From a virus: a stretch of 20,325 bases of DNA. The stretch is taken from the IMG/VR virus record IMGVR_UViG_3300042914_001429, positions 1-20,325 of that record; one strand, written 5' to 3'. This document shows, in pieces, positions 3,847-20,150 of the stretch. The first letter of the stretch is position 1, and each line of letters opens with the position of its first letter. The translations under genes and the position numbers were made by a program. The notes beneath the pieces were generated by a model. It saw only the letters and a program-made list of their open reading frames with translations. It was not told where the DNA came from and searched no databases.

Positions 3847-4106
3847 GTTTGGCCTCTTTTTAATATCTTTGCAATTAACTCCATGCACAAGTGGTAAGCC
3901 TCATCCTCAAGCTCGTCTGTCATTTCTTCTTTAATGGCTTCTGTTACCGATAAACGCTCTGCTGCTGCGACTAAAGCGGCAAAGCGTTCAAGTGCTTCCT
4001 GATGTATGCCTTCCGGATACTGATTGCCTTCGGTCGGCGACGTCCATACGAACGTGCTTTCGGAGTACCACAGCCCCGCTTTGTGTGCCATCTCAATAAT
4101 GTTCAT
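3843..4106 (-). CDS. Small phage protein with the LERFAALVAAAE helix
   Basis: An 87-residue acidic protein. Its N-terminal third (MNIIEMAHKAGLWYS) resembles the opening of a large group of small phage proteins. It is followed by PEGIHQEALERFAALVAAAE, a helix widely reused in phages of Betaproteobacteria and present again in the gene at 7456-7680 of this window. The C-terminus is helical with one Cys. It has ATGA overlaps at both ends. Function unknown; the shared helix may be an interaction module. Confidence 0.65.
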   Translation of the reverse strand: MNIIEMAHKAGLWYSESTFVWTSPTEGNQYPEGIHQEALERFAALVAAAERLSVTEAIKEEMTDELEDEAYHLCMELIAKILKRGQT

Positions 4107-4297
4107 GGCCGCACCGCCTTGGCCATGATCTCCAGCCGTTCACGGGCGTCACGCAGGGCGCAGTACCGCTGATGCAGGCGCTGCAGGTGGGAGCTGCGGC
4201 GCTCGTTCAACGTCTCATGCGTCAGTAGCGCGAACACCTCGTCCTCTGACAATGACGGCAACTGGTCATTCAGTGCGCGCCAGCTTTGTTTTTTCAT
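4103..4297 (-). CDS. Small helical protein of unknown function, 64 aa
   Basis: A predominantly helical, charged 64-residue protein (MKKQSWRALNDQLPSLSEDE...). A C-terminal Arg/Leu-rich stretch (HLQRLHQRYCALRDARERLE) could form a coiled coil. AGAAGG sits 6 bases upstream of the ATG, so the start is well supported even though it overlaps the upstream gene by 32 bases. The pattern LPSLSEDEVFALLTHE resembles the short binding modules that recur in phage proteins. No function can be given. Confidence 0.6.
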   Translation of the reverse strand: MKKQSWRALNDQLPSLSEDEVFALLTHETLNERRSSHLQRLHQRYCALRDARERLEIMAKAVRP

Positions 4298-12878: not shown

Positions 12879-15197
12879 ATGGATTTCCTCGAATTTTATA
12901 CCAAATTGGCACCACAGGGTGAGACTGCACTGGTCGTGCGCCAGAAACCCAAACTCAAAAACGGTCAGATCCAGCTCCACCCCGATGGCGCGGTCATTTG
13001 CACATGGCCGGCCTACCTGCCCGACTATCCGACCAAACCTGATTGGGCGATCTACGGTAACACCGCGTCATTCATTGTCGATCGATTCAAGGACGGCCAT
13101 GTATCGGCATCGAAAGACAATTGCGATTACGTTCTGGTCATGGTGCTGGATGACGTGGGCGACCCTGAGAAGGCGCCCAACATCCCGCCCCTGCCGCCGA
13201 CGTGGATCATCGAGACGTCCGCTGGGTCGTTCCAGTGGGGATACGCTTTTTCCGAGCAGCCGACCAAGGGCGAGTACGCTGCTGCGATCGACGCGATTAT
13301 CAAGGCCGGCTACTGCGACCCAGGCGCCAATAACGCCGTGCGTAACTTCCGCCTACCGGGCTCGATCAATATCAAGCCGGGGCGTGACTTGTTCGCGTCG
13401 CGTTTGGTCGAGTTCCACCCCGACCGCGAGTTCACCTTGCCCGAAATCTGCGCAGCTCTTAACGTCACGCCGTCCGAGCCATCATCCTTGGGCGTGCGTC
13501 CTATCCGGCTCTCAGACGATGGCGCGGATGATGTGATGGCGTGGCTGTCCGCGCAGGGCGTGCTGCTGTCCACACCGAACACACGCGGGTGGGCGACTGT
13601 CATCTGCCCGAATAAGGATCAGCACACGGACGGCAACCCCGAAGGCGGCTACAGCCCATCGACGCGCTCTTACCGCTGCCTGCACTCGCACTGCGTCGAC
13701 TTCGACTCAAACGCGTTCCTCGATTGGGTCGCGGCCAATGGTGGGCCGAAGCACGCGCCTGGCTTGCGTGAAGAGTTGCTCGCGGCTGTGATGGATCAAA
13801 CGCTTGCAAAACTGACGCCGACCGAGGCGTTCCCAGACAAGGGTGCCGAGGTGATCGCCGAGGTCGAGAAAAAACAACTGGATAGGGTCGAGAAGGAAAG
13901 CTGGTATGAGCGTTTTGCGTACATTCAGGACGATGATTCGTACTTTGACATGGACGATCGACGCGAGATTAGTCGCAATACTTTCAATGCACTCTTTCGG
14001 CACGTCACCTGTCACTCCATCCACAAGGGCAAAACGCCGCGCCGAATTGAGGCGTCTACATGCTTTGACGAAAACCGACAGGCGAAAGGTGCGCTCGCTT
14101 TAGCCGGTATTACTTACGCTGCCGGCGAGACGGTGCTTGTGTCGCGTGACGGTCAGGTCTACGGTAACCGATGGTCGAATGGCCGTCCGGCGTGCGTGGC
14201 TGGCGATGTAACGCTTTGGTTAGACCATCTGCACCGGATGGTGCCCGAAGCGTTTGAGCGGGAGCATTTGCTTAACGTGATAGCGCACAAGGTGCAGCGC
14301 CCAGACGTCAAGATCAATCACGCGATTCTGCACATTGGCCGGCAGGGTAGCGGCAAAGATACGCTATACGAGCCGTTTTTATGGGCTGTTGGGGGTGCTC
14401 GCGCTAGCCGGCGTAACGTGGCTATCGTGCGTAACGAGGAAATTACGTCTCAATGGGGCTACAACTACGAATCCGAAATTATGGTGTTCGAAGAGCTGCG
14501 CCAGAGCGAGGCGAAGGATCGCAGGGCGCTCGAGAATCACCTGAAGCCCATTATCGCCGCGCCGCCTGAGTTTGTAACCGTTAACCGCAAGGGTTTGCAC
14601 CCGTACCAGGCGCTGAACCGAATGCTGGTGCTGGCATTCTCGAATGAGCGGGTGCCCTTGTCGTTGCCGTCTGAGGATCGCCGCTGGTTTGTCGTATATT
14701 CGGACGCGCCGCGCATGACCGAGGAAGAGGGTGCCCGCTTGTGGCGCTGGCTGGATAATGGCGGCTGTTCGGCGGTCGCAGCGTGGCTGTATCAGCGTGA
14801 CGTGAGCAAATTCAACCCAGGCGGCACTCCACCACTGACCGAAGCCAAGATCATCATGGTCGAGCAGGGTAGGTCGACCGCCGAATCCTATCTGGTCGAG
14901 ATGATCGAGCGCCGCTTGGGCGAGTTCTCTGCAGGTGTCGTGGCCGCACCGTTCTACAGCCTGTGCGACCGCCTGCAGGGTGGCGCACCAATGAATACTC
15001 GCGTGGTACAGCAGGCGCTACTGCATGCGCTGAAAGAGGCCGGCTGGGTCGATATGGGGCGCATAAAGTCGCGAGAGTTTGACACCCGTAAGCACATTAT
15101 CTGTGCGCCAGAGCTGGCCGACACGGCGAGCAAGTCAGAACTCCGGCGCATGGTCGAAGAAACACCACCGCCGTCCGCCGTTCGCCTGGTCAAGTAA
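12879..15197 (+). CDS. Primase-helicase: AEP/PrimPol, zinc region and SF3 helicase
   Basis: A 772-residue multidomain replication protein with AAGGA 5 bases before the ATG. Residues about 80-190 form an archaeo-eukaryotic primase-like domain: VLDDVGD (Asp91/Asp92), SAGSFQWGY (114-122), and RLPGSINIKPG (158-168). Residues 240-275 have Cys243, His249, Cys267, His271 and Cys272, a zinc-binding region like that of primases. The C-terminal half (DUF5906-like) is an SF3/D5-type ATPase: Walker A GRQGSGKDT (487-495), Walker B IMVFEEL (534-540), and Asn589 (FSNE) before SEDRRW with arginines 601/602. It should make primers and unwind DNA. It follows the HNH gene and ends at a terminator stem. Confidence 0.9.
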   Translation: MDFLEFYTKLAPQGETALVVRQKPKLKNGQIQLHPDGAVICTWPAYLPDYPTKPDWAIYGNTASFIVDRFKDGHVSASKDNCDYVLVMVLDDVGDPEKAPNIPPLPPTWIIETSAGSFQWGYAFSEQPTKGEYAAAIDAIIKAGYCDPGANNAVRNFRLPGSINIKPGRDLFASRLVEFHPDREFTLPEICAALNVTPSEPSSLGVRPIRLSDDGADDVMAWLSAQGVLLSTPNTRGWATVICPNKDQHTDGNPEGGYSPSTRSYRCLHSHCVDFDSNAFLDWVAANGGPKHAPGLREELLAAVMDQTLAKLTPTEAFPDKGAEVIAEVEKKQLDRVEKESWYERFAYIQDDDSYFDMDDRREISRNTFNALFRHVTCHSIHKGKTPRRIEASTCFDENRQAKGALALAGITYAAGETVLVSRDGQVYGNRWSNGRPACVAGDVTLWLDHLHRMVPEAFEREHLLNVIAHKVQRPDVKINHAILHIGRQGSGKDTLYEPFLWAVGGARASRRNVAIVRNEEITSQWGYNYESEIMVFEELRQSEAKDRRALENHLKPIIAAPPEFVTVNRKGLHPYQALNRMLVLAFSNERVPLSLPSEDRRWFVVYSDAPRMTEEEGARLWRWLDNGGCSAVAAWLYQRDVSKFNPGGTPPLTEAKIIMVEQGRSTAESYLVEMIERRLGEFSAGVVAAPFYSLCDRLQGGAPMNTRVVQQALLHALKEAGWVDMGRIKSREFDTRKHIICAPELADTASKSELRRMVEETPPPSAVRLVK

Positions 15198-16826: not shown

Positions 16827-16925
16827 TTTGTGGGTCATTTGGGCGGTTTGTGGGTCATGAAAATGGCGCGGATGACCCACGCGATAACCTAGTCTGCTAC
16901 TAGCTTTTGGCTATTTGTGGGTCAT
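16827..16925. repeat. TTTGTGGGTCAT repeats (three direct, one inverted core)
   Basis: TTTGTGGGTCAT occurs at 16827-16838, 16847-16858 (exactly 20 bases apart) and 16914-16925. Its core ATGACCCAC is inverted at 16872-16880. Such clustering in an AT-rich gene-free region suggests a protein-binding array upstream of the leftward promoter. Confidence 0.6.
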
Positions 16926-16996: not shown

Positions 16997-17066
16997 TCCC
17001 CCCGTGCCCCACGCTATACACAGCCGACGACTTTAAAAAAAGGGCCCTAAATTGCCCACACGCAAA

Positions 17067-17091
17067 CCCTTGATTTTAAAGGGCTTTTTTT
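17067..17091 (+). terminator. Weak rho-independent terminator-like hairpin
   Basis: CCCTT (17067-17071) and AAGGG (17079-17083) pair around GATTTTA and are followed by C and seven Ts. The stem is short (5 bp), so termination of rightward read-through from the replication operon is possible but uncertain. Confidence 0.45.
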
Positions 17092-17167
17092 ATTACCTTT
17101 TGATAACAAAAGTTGTAAGCCATTGATTTTAAACAGAAAAAGTGTGGGTTTTTGCGAATTGCCCACA

Positions 17168-17208
17168 TTATCCACCAATGCTAGTAGGGTTATTATAAGT
17201 TATCCACA
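17168..17208. other. Two DnaA-box matches
   Basis: TTATCCACA (17200-17208) is identical to the E. coli consensus DnaA box, and TTATCCACC (17168-17176) differs at one base. Both are in the same orientation, 32 bases apart, beside AT-rich DNA and the repeat array. One perfect 9-mer could occur by chance in 20 kb, but the pair in this context is suggestive. Confidence 0.5.
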
Positions 17209-17231
17209 GGTTTGGTAGCATTATGCTAATA

Positions 17232-17357
17232 GTTAGTGACCACTAACCTGGCTATGTTAGTGACCACTAACTTTGTAAGTGAGTGCTTACTAACCTGGTT
17301 AGTTAGTGCTTACTAACTTGTCAGCCTGGCAACCCAAAAAAGTGAGTGCTCACTAAC
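17232..17357. repeat. Five near-palindromic 16-bp repeats (GTTAGTGACCACTAAC type)
   Basis: Copies: 17232-17247 and 17256-17271 (identical, 7-base perfect arms around AC), 17279-17294, 17302-17317 and 17342-17357. Start-to-start distances are 24, 23, 23 and 40 bases. The consensus is GT(T/G)AGTG(A/C)(C/T)(C/T)ACTAAC. The regular spacing and dyad symmetry point to cooperative protein binding: iterons, a partition site or repressor operators. Confidence 0.75.
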
Positions 17358-17476
17358 CTAGGGGGGTGGGGGGCCCGTGGCTGGCCGGTCACGATTACGG
17401 AGGGTCTGCACAAAATTTTTTTTCTTTATAAAACCAGCCAACGACCACCAGAAAAATAGCCCACATTGCCCACAAA

Positions 17477-17504
17477 TTGACATCACACGCAAATGCGCTA
17501 ATAT
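17477..17504 (+). promoter_or_regulatory. Rightward promoter of the terminase operon
   Basis: TTGACA (17477-17482, perfect) and TAATAT (17499-17504, four of six) are separated by 16 bases. The ATG of the small terminase gene is at 17511, six bases after the -10, so the transcript should start at or next to the start codon. No Shine-Dalgarno precedes it. Confidence 0.6.
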
Positions 17505-17510
17505 GCAGCC

Positions 17511-17960
17511 ATGTTCAAATCAATCCCATTCACCCCGCGCAAAGTCGAAGCGACCGAAGCCAGGCTGCAGGCCATCTATGACGCGGCTGCGCTTGGACTC
17601 AAGGGCGACTCGCTTGCTTTGGCGGCTGGTATGCTGCCCACCGAGTTTAGGCAGCTGTGCGAGCTTGACCCGGCAGCGGACATGGCCGCCATGAAAGGCC
17701 GCGCCGACAGCGAGATGGAGGCCAGTGCCCACCTGCGCAACGCAGCCCGCGCTGGCGACAGCAAGGCGGCGCTCGCAATCCTGCAGCACGCCCACGGCTG
17801 GACGGCCCGCCAAGAAATTAGTGTCGACATCACGAACAAGATCAGCATCACGCAGGCGCTGCAGCAGGCACAAGAACGCGTCATCGATGGACTGATTACG
17901 GAACAGCAACCGGAGTATCTGGAAAATGCCACTGAACGCACTCGCACCGCCGTCGGTTAA
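17511..17960 (+). CDS. terS: Terminase small subunit
   Basis: A 149-residue protein, almost entirely helical. The N-terminal FKSIPFTPRKVEATEARLQA leads into a helix-turn-helix-like part (LALAAGMLPTEFRQLCELD). A central AALAILQHAHGWTARQEISV segment and a C-terminal helix (QALQQAQERVIDGL) fit phage small terminases, which bind the pac/cos site and hand DNA to the large subunit. It is two genes before the large terminase, with a 35-base overlap with the gene between. It has no ribosome site and probably a leaderless mRNA. The assignment rests on architecture and position. Confidence 0.8.
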   Translation: MFKSIPFTPRKVEATEARLQAIYDAAALGLKGDSLALAAGMLPTEFRQLCELDPAADMAAMKGRADSEMEASAHLRNAARAGDSKAALAILQHAHGWTARQEISVDITNKISITQALQQAQERVIDGLITEQQPEYLENATERTRTAVG

Positions 17961-18612
17961 TGTATTGCGGCAAGCAGTCGGCGCTGACGCCTTTGCCGCG
18001 CCCACCGCACCAATACAGACCTACTCACCTCGCCCTGGCGTGACCTTTGTCGGGCAAGTGCATGGCGAACCCATGACGCTGCCTGCTCGCATCAAAGCAG
18101 AGGCTGCGCAACACGGCGCGTATTACGAAGGCACGGGTGGCGACAAGCTGCCGGGCGTGTCATACAAAGGGTCGTGGGACGACGCAGCCGCCAAAGCGGT
18201 CAAAGGATACCCATCAGAATTCCTGTTTACGCTGTTTACCAACACGGACGTAAACAAACAAAAAGACGTGCTGCCTAGCGACAAGACGATATTTGATAGC
18301 ATTTTGGAAAACCAAGACAAGTTCGGGTACTTTAAAGACCGTAAGTTTGACAGCAAGACCTTGGCGACTTTTCTGCAAAACATGGGGCCGGAGTTTTTGC
18401 AAGAAGCCCAGCGCCCGGCGTCAAAGGAAAACGTAGCGGCGTTTTTAGATCGGGGCGAGCGCGAAATGTGGGAGGCTGACGACACACCCGCACGCCAAAT
18501 GGCCAACAAAGCCAACGAACACCGCCAACGCTGGTTGCTGTCGCAACCCAAAGGCGTGTACTTTATAGGCTCCGACCACCTGCAAGACTTGAAACGACTG
18601 CAAGGTAAATAA
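17926..18612 (+). CDS. Unknown protein between the terminase genes, 228 aa
   Basis: A 228-residue protein with a Pro/Ala-rich N-terminal region (to about residue 40) and a helical, charged body. A recognisable stretch is GVSYKGSWDDAAAKAVKGYP, then FLFTLFTNTDVNKQKD. The C-terminus is basic (RWLLSQPKGVYFIG...LKRLQGK). No motif of a known nuclease, methylase or HNH enzyme is visible. The start at 17926 overlaps terS by 35 bases; a start further in is possible. The stop overlaps the terL start by one base (TAATG), so it belongs to the packaging operon. The function may be packaging accessory or virion component; neither is supported by motif. Confidence 0.65.
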   Translation: MPLNALAPPSVNVLRQAVGADAFAAPTAPIQTYSPRPGVTFVGQVHGEPMTLPARIKAEAAQHGAYYEGTGGDKLPGVSYKGSWDDAAAKAVKGYPSEFLFTLFTNTDVNKQKDVLPSDKTIFDSILENQDKFGYFKDRKFDSKTLATFLQNMGPEFLQEAQRPASKENVAAFLDRGEREMWEADDTPARQMANKANEHRQRWLLSQPKGVYFIGSDHLQDLKRLQGK

Positions 18613-20150
18613 TGGCGCAACAGCCGATCTATGACGCCGAGGGCGAGCAGCTCCTAATGACGCGCCTCTGGGCGCCGACCATCGCTGACGACCCCGAAGC
18701 GTTCGTGCTGTTCGCGTTTCCGTGGGGGCAACCCAACACGCCGCTGGCCAAGTTCAAAGGCCCGCGCACCTGGCAGCGCAAGATACTGCGCAGAATCGCC
18801 ACGCACATCCGAAATAATCGGGGTCAGATTGACATGGACGCCCTACGCACTGCGGTCGCGTCCGGTCGAGGGATTGGTAAGTCTGCGCTCGTCTCTTGGC
18901 TCGTCTTGTGGATGCTGTCCACCCGCATCGGGTCAAGCGTAATCGTGTCGGCTAACAGTGAAGCCCAGCTCAGATCCGTGACATGGGGCGAGTTAACCAA
19001 GTGGCAGGCGATGGTGATTAACAGCCATTGGTGGGAGATTAGCGCAACCAAGCTGATTCCGGCTAAGTGGATTACGGAACTGGTCGAGCGCGACTTGAAG
19101 AAAGGTACGCGCTACTGGGCGGCTGAAGGCAAGCTTTGGTCGGAAGAAAACCCTGACAGTTACGCCGGTGTTCACAACCACGACGGCATGATGCTGATCT
19201 TCGACGAGGCCTCAGGTATTCCGGACGCCATTTGGTCGGTCGGTGCGGGCTTTTTTACCGAACCCATCCTTGACCGGTACTGGTTCGCGTTCAGTAACCC
19301 CCGGCGTAATCAAGGCTACTTCTACGAGTGCTTCCACGCCAAGCGGGCCTTCTGGCACACGGAGAATATTGACTCGCGAACGGTCGAAGACACGGACAAG
19401 CAGATATATGAGCAGATCATTGCGGAGTATGGCGAGGATTCGCCACAGGCTAGGGTTGAGGTCTACGGTGAATTCCCATCGGCTGGCGAAGATCAGTTTA
19501 TTGGTGCGTCTGCTGTCGACGATGCCGCCCAAAGGCCACGCTACAAGGACGAGACGGCGCCAGTTGTTGTCGGCGTTGACCCAGCTCGCGGCGGCGCGGA
19601 CGCAACCGTCATCGTCGTCCGACAAGGGCGAGATCTAGTCGCGATCAAACGGTACCACGGCGAGGACACGATGACGACCGTTGGCCGAGTGATTGATGCC
19701 ATCGAGGAGTACCGCCCGGCGCTAACAGTGATCGACGAAGGCGGTCTAGGCTACGGGGTACTTGACAGGCTAAAAGAACAGCGCTACAAGGTGCGGGGAG
19801 TGAACTTCGGTTGGAAGTCCTCCAAGCCGGTCATGTACGGCAACAAGCGAGCCGAGATGTGGGGTGCGATGAAGGACTGGCTACGAACGGCCAGCATCCC
19901 CAACGACAGGCAGCTCAAAGCCGACCTGACAGGCCCCATGAAGAAGCCCGACTCGTCGGGTACGATCTACTTGGAAGGCAAGAAAGAAATGAAGTCGAGA
20001 GGCCTCGCGTCACCGGACGCAGCCGACGCCCTAGCGGTGACGTTCGCGTTCCCGATGGCAAGCCGAGAGTCGAGTTTTGAGCGCGCCTCACGGCGCAATG
20101 ATGGCTACACGCAGCGACCTGTCGCTGCAACTGGCTGGATGGGGGCATGA
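18612..20150 (+). CDS. terL: Terminase large subunit
   Basis: A 512-residue DNA-packaging ATPase-nuclease with AAGGT 5 bases before the ATG. The ATPase domain has Walker A SGRGIGKS (84-91), Walker B LIFDEAS (195-201) and a coupling-type segment AFSNPRRN (226-233). The nuclease domain has Asp323 (GVDPARGG), Asp375 (VIDEGG) and Asp469/Asp472 (SPDAADAL), the expected RNase H-like acidic triad. The length is normal. It cuts concatemeric genomes and drives DNA into the prohead. Its stop overlaps the next small gene as ATGA. Confidence 0.93.
   Translation: MAQQPIYDAEGEQLLMTRLWAPTIADDPEAFVLFAFPWGQPNTPLAKFKGPRTWQRKILRRIATHIRNNRGQIDMDALRTAVASGRGIGKSALVSWLVLWMLSTRIGSSVIVSANSEAQLRSVTWGELTKWQAMVINSHWWEISATKLIPAKWITELVERDLKKGTRYWAAEGKLWSEENPDSYAGVHNHDGMMLIFDEASGIPDAIWSVGAGFFTEPILDRYWFAFSNPRRNQGYFYECFHAKRAFWHTENIDSRTVEDTDKQIYEQIIAEYGEDSPQARVEVYGEFPSAGEDQFIGASAVDDAAQRPRYKDETAPVVVGVDPARGGADATVIVVRQGRDLVAIKRYHGEDTMTTVGRVIDAIEEYRPALTVIDEGGLGYGVLDRLKEQRYKVRGVNFGWKSSKPVMYGNKRAEMWGAMKDWLRTASIPNDRQLKADLTGPMKKPDSSGTIYLEGKKEMKSRGLASPDAADALAVTFAFPMASRESSFERASRRNDGYTQRPVAATGWMGA

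Follow-up and report, generated by a model that had tools for sequence, protein, structure and literature searches.

Conserved dyad sites adjoin a TerL-linked core, a putative packaging region, in tailed phages from freshwater metagenomes

Phages lambda and 21 have the same cosQ and cosN and different R sites (PMC4669245). By analogy, we regard this pair as the nearest precedent for the exchangeable arrays described here. P22 has its pac, an asymmetric sequence of 22 bp, within the gene for TerS (PMC9611059). Phage P26218 was assembled as a circle, which was read as a terminally redundant or circularly permuted genome (PMC4657236). We analyzed a window of 20,325 nucleotides (IMG/VR record IMGVR_UViG_3300042914_001429), part of a tailed-phage genome, in which a sequence-only reading had proposed a candidate replication origin made of DnaA boxes and regular near-palindromes.

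The window encodes a helicase, a VRR-NUC-type endonuclease, an exonuclease, PolA, an HNH endonuclease and a primase-helicase, followed by a leftward block of small genes. Beyond this block, a stretch without genes leads to the presumed terS, which is followed by an optional gene and then terL. The large terminase subunit TerL (512 aa, 18612..20150, + strand) is distantly related to the TerL proteins of epsilon15 and phiV10 (~38%). The gene at 17511..17960 (+ strand, 149 aa) is presumed to encode the small subunit TerS, mainly from its position before terL and its N-terminal helix-turn-helix. It had no sequence match in Pfam, PHROG or PDB. The N-terminal helical domain of its structural model (mean pLDDT 76.7) was TerS-like, and the fold matches in the PDB (phBC6A51, PaP3 TerS and Sf6 TerS) were weak, with E values of 0.4 to 4. 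Strong matches among predicted viral proteins were mostly unnamed relatives, and some weaker ones were labelled small terminase. A promoter-like TTGACA-16-TAATAT (17477..17504, + strand), recognized by consensus match only, precedes terS.

Five 16-bp near-palindromes had been reported in the non-coding stretch, and they were borne out. They span 17232-17357 with start-to-start steps of 24, 23, 23 and 40 bases. They are copies 1 and 2 (GTTAGTGACCACTAAC; 17232..17247 and 17256..17271), copy 3 (GTGAGTGCTTACTAAC; 17279..17294), copy 4 (GTTAGTGCTTACTAAC; 17302..17317) and copy 5 (GTGAGTGCTCACTAAC; 17342..17357), the last docked on a conserved core. All five are on the + strand. The window contained exactly five sites with at most two mismatches from GTTAGTGNNCACTAAC, against a mean of 0.0 in block-shuffled sequence. 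The 40-base step, whose content had been overlooked, is not empty: it is filled by a second, different palindrome, TTGTCAGCCTGGCAAC (17318..17333, no strand), which abuts copy 4. The sites are dyads, and the earlier doubt over plain iterons was justified. An Rfam search gave no match. A hairpin function was rejected, as position 3 of the left half is T, G or A and its partner is A in 90%, so that pairing is not maintained.

Relatives were gathered by a pattern scan and by TerL searches of IMG/VR. They yielded 89 non-redundant arrays of 3-9 copies, with 469 sites in total, and each array lies left of the core and before terS. All copies have the same orientation, giving the directional consensus AAGTNAGTGNNYACTAACYTGG, and are spaced mostly by 23-24, 29 or 38-39 bp. 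Of 59 close relatives, 47 have a last copy that stops 12-14 bp short of the core GGCC; in the distant tC group, whose TerL is ~66-69% identical to that of the window, this gap is 16-21 bp in 17 of 25 members. A random genome-wide scatter of the 16-mer had been named as a refutation of the proposed origin; instead, the sites were nearly restricted to the array locus, with 78 inside and 4 outside the array in 14 array-bearing genomes (0.5 Mb). Of the 59 close arrays, 52 carry the palindrome TTGTCAGCCTGGCAAC, which had no further occurrence in 763 kb. Conservation of 89 non-redundant arrays across many independent metagenomes, and the lack of such sites in shuffled sequence, mean that chance or an assembly artefact can practically be dismissed.

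The nearest relatives with annotation were all assembled from metagenomes, namely DSL-LC05 from Dishui Lake (TerL 71%), which has been called lytic (PMC10611076), and two Manatee Spring genomes. In 30 near-full-length relatives, integrase and ParB_N were absent, and HTH_3 gave three weak matches, none above the cut-off. Among 84,980 bacterial and archaeal species genomes, relatives were found in one MAG only. A virulent phage is the best reading. A 64-aa protein (4103-4297, − strand) was encoded in 28 of 29 main-group genomes and was not found in DSL-LC05-like ones.

These results bear on two alternatives raised by the sequence-only reading. A partition site of a plasmid-like prophage had been suggested, and centromere arrays do have a similar look, with dyads repeated at even intervals. 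We consider this very improbable, since the 30 relatives encode neither the ParB protein expected of a ParB-parS system nor an integrase, prophage copies are essentially lacking, and blastn found no similar array among 72,556 plasmids. A cooperative repressor array of a prophage is likewise disfavoured, because the integrase and HTH_3-type repressor that would accompany a CI/Cro-type operator array were not found in the same genomes (HTH_3 at the cut-off), and because bacterial and archaeal genomes gave a single MAG hit. More broadly, a dimeric regulator of the phage or host might act on the dyads to control two promoters that face apart, one early and leftward, the other late and serving terS. 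The array does lie between divergent promoter-like sites (16797-16770, − strand, and 17477-17504, + strand), and a palindrome of the DSL-LC05 lineage, ACCCANTGGGT, occurs both in the array region and near promoters. However, both promoters lie outside the array, at distances of ~120 and 430 bp, few GTTAGTG sites occur elsewhere, no HTH_3 protein exceeded the cut-off, and close docking on the core would not be expected. A regulatory role is therefore quite unlikely.

A G-run had been noticed to the right of the array. This run, GGGGGGTGGGGGG (17361-17373), opens a conserved core that had been missed as a whole and that ends in a T-run. The core (17361..17429, + strand) contains the G-run, GGGCC, ACGGAGG and the T-run, and is the proposed terminase recognition or cutting region, either cos or pac. 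Its general layout is GGGGG-n-GGG..GGCC, then approximately 40 nt in which ACGnAGG and TCAC occur, and then the T-run. A pattern search detected it in 300 of 327 terL loci, which is wider than the array. This search required GGG..GGCC and the T-run, so the conservation of those parts is inflated. Because both ends were demanded, independent evidence comes from two features that the search did not impose, a constant spacing and an internal element. The spacing from GGCC to the T-run was 40 nt in 221 of the 300 cores. The element CGnAGS..YYRC, located 26 nt after GGCC, was present in 116 of 221 distinct cores from all three TerL groups, compared with 2 of 3819 GGCC sites in a coding control. The core precedes the presumed terS by approximately 110 bp and lies upstream of terL; the median distance from core to terS start was 113 bp across relatives. 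A cos or pac site is expected at the terminase genes or shortly ahead of them, as here. The optional gene (228 aa, 17926..18612, + strand), which has no family match, is also found in relatives between core and terS; it occupies the terS-terL interval here and the core-terS interval in the L010 locus, and thus moves within the packaging module.

We compared the genes with which the core is inherited. Two genomes of the DSL-LC05-like tB group, G031 and G034, had no detectable homologues of PolA, the primase-helicase, the SSB-like protein or TerS; their exonuclease match was at best 23% and their helicase approximately 31%. They retain TerL (74-77%), portal (69-73%) and capsid (76-82%) together with the core, and their relatives also retain it. 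In G031 and G034 (L480-L481 and L494-L495), a large module exchange is apparent, with the replication genes and TerS replaced and TerL and the head genes 69-82% identical. Phage P26218 has a related capsid (34%) and portal (41%) and an unrelated TerL; no core was seen before its terL region. P22-like P26218 was rejected as a model on account of its different TerL. The core thus goes with TerL, being kept with it in G031 and G034 and not seen beside the other TerL of P26218; inheritance with the terminase rather than with the replication genes is what a cos or pac site would show. Since the core follows TerL and stands before terS, packaging is its simplest function, and from these comparisons it most likely belongs to DNA packaging as cos or pac.

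The array may then form the left part of a packaging-initiation region in which the core is the terminase site, a tentative reading that we place a little short of an even chance. In this scheme, the terminase, chiefly TerL, would recognize or cut concatemeric DNA at the core (17361-17429). To its left, approximately five same-facing dyad sites of 16-20 bp and the different palindrome would be available, and a dimeric DNA-binding protein would occupy each dyad site. Given how near the last copy lies to the G-run, a fully occupied array would bring the terminase onto the core or orient it there, much as lambda cosB, through its R sites and its IHF site, acts on cosN. In favour of this reading, the array ends near the core in separate lineages. 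Against it, approximately half of the core-bearing loci carry no recognized array, and the conserved DnaA box described below is left unexplained. Contig ends also did not cluster at the core to mark a cos cut, an outcome compatible with a terminase cut there as well as with none: breakpoints were scattered and full-length contigs opened at many places, so reading cos ends from contig ends was rejected. One full-length contig had a direct terminal repeat. No core was found in isolates by blastn, and epsilon15 and phiV10 were set aside as guides, no similar core being seen at the epsilon15 genome start.

The sequence-only reading had rested on a perfect DnaA box beside the array. This box, TTATCCACA, is present at 17200..17208 (+ strand). 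One perfect box per 20 kb is not significant alone, as we estimate that approximately 0.16 would be expected by chance on two strands. However, it was conserved on the same strand in 48 of 55 close array-bearing relatives, with a typical offset of 32 bp to the left of the first copy, compared with 0 of 278 coding control windows, and for this reason we consider it real. It was found in 0 of 29 of the other array-bearing lineages. The reported near match, TTATCCACC, is also present (17168..17176, + strand), but it was kept in only 3 of 54 and is unlikely to work as a DnaA box. It is contiguous with the 9-mer TTGCCCACA at 17159. The AT-rich tracts described to the left were confirmed, with a GC content of 0.26-0.35 (17085-17160 and 17168-17231) against 0.54 in the whole window.

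Contiguous 9-bp direct repeats form a second repeat class (16829-16924, 17052-17060, 17159-17167 and 17459-17474), and some sit at the terS promoter. Their units are TTGCCCACA and TGACCCACA in the window and TTGTCCACA, TGACCCAAA and TAGCCAACA in relatives; they are DnaA-box-like, yet differ by lineage. Of 220 loci, 73% had tandem 9-mers in the vicinity of the core, compared with approximately 5% in the shuffled or coding control.

These features suit an origin, where host DnaA would bind TTATCCACA and an initiator on the dyads, or on the 9-bp tandem repeats, would open the AT-rich DNA. The phage primase-helicase and PolA would start there, and the core might be an adjacent but distinct site for packaging. 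The DnaA box at its preferred 32-bp offset, the AT-rich left flank, the array repeats and the frequency of tandem 9-mers all fit. No obvious initiator or ParB gene had been seen in the window. ParB_N was found in none of the 30 relatives. The window does encode a possible initiator, the primase-helicase (12879-15197), approximately 2 kb upstream and carrying DUF5906 and a sub-threshold RepB_primase match. It speaks against an origin that the element shared by the whole family, the core, is inherited with TerL and the head genes and survives the replacement of PolA, the primase-helicase, the SSB-like protein and the exonuclease. Moreover, the last copy is near the core and not near the DnaA box, the box is missing from the other array-bearing lineages, and no array-specific initiator gene was found. 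GC skew, which had been suggested as a check, was calculated for third codon positions as well; it was uninformative, being weak, tied to gene direction and without a clear switch. An origin is possible but doubtful.

TerS was considered as the reader of the array, and the outcome speaks against the packaging reading. In the main group, its helix-turn-helix (GLKGDxLALAxGMLPxEYRQL) is nearly identical with the array (L132) and without it (L339), and the recognition helix does not co-vary with the repeated sites as in a lambda-type cosB. To account for the array, the TerS tree also requires that it was gained or lost at least eight times. For these two reasons, TerS was rejected and is probably not the array reader. 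Array changes on the primase, TerS and TerL trees numbered 5, 5 and 4, a roughly equal fit that does not discriminate among them. No gene was exclusive to array-bearing phages, and the best-correlated ORFs were mostly overlapping or low-value frames.

In the DSL-LC05 lineage, the different palindrome ACCCANTGGGT occupies the array region, and MW202483 carries repeats of the GTTTACATAAAC palindrome instead; arrays are therefore lineage-specific and exchangeable. Judged from these sequences, the array appears to be a lineage-specific accessory docked on a wider core. In MW202483 (L187:2645-3091), an annotated homing endonuclease gene lies between core and terS, beside the GTTTACATAAAC array. It is conceivable, although rather unlikely, that exchangeable dyad arrays serve the TerL-linked core through a host or phage reader other than TerS, perhaps coupling DnaA-dependent replication to packaging at a single location.

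Overall, the dyad array is real and conserved, and it is part of, or closely coupled to, the TerL-linked putative packaging core; the main rival is an origin, chiefly by virtue of the DnaA box. Relatives are common in freshwater metagenomes, and the phage records searched contain only metagenome-assembled ones. A short core that follows TerL would allow packaging sites to be searched for in phages that have not been cultured, and the exchangeable arrays offer a natural series for asking which non-TerS protein sets the specificity of packaging, or of an origin.

Compared with known systems, parS-type arrays are similar in their regularly spaced palindromes and different in that no ParB or lysogeny genes were found here. 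DnaA-box/iteron origins of plasmids and phages share the DnaA box, repeats of approximately two turns and AT-rich DNA. Unlike them, this locus has dyads rather than plain iterons and an attached core that follows TerL, and no dedicated initiator was found. The headful pac sites of P22, SPP1 and Sf6 lie upstream of or within terS, as here, and the head genes are related to those of P26218; however, the P26218 TerL is unrelated, and no large dyad array has been named for those pac sites. Lambda cos (cosQ-cosN-cosB, with R1-R3 and an IHF site) differs in that cosB lies between cosN and terS, whereas here the core separates the array from terS. The TerS recognition helix of lambda and 21 changes with the sites, whereas here it is constant. 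The copies here are dyads and number up to nine, and no cohesive end is known here. In both lambda cos and this locus, a conserved region next to terS is adjoined by several short sites, and in both, relatives diverge in these binding sites yet retain the cut region, here the putative core (PMC4669245).
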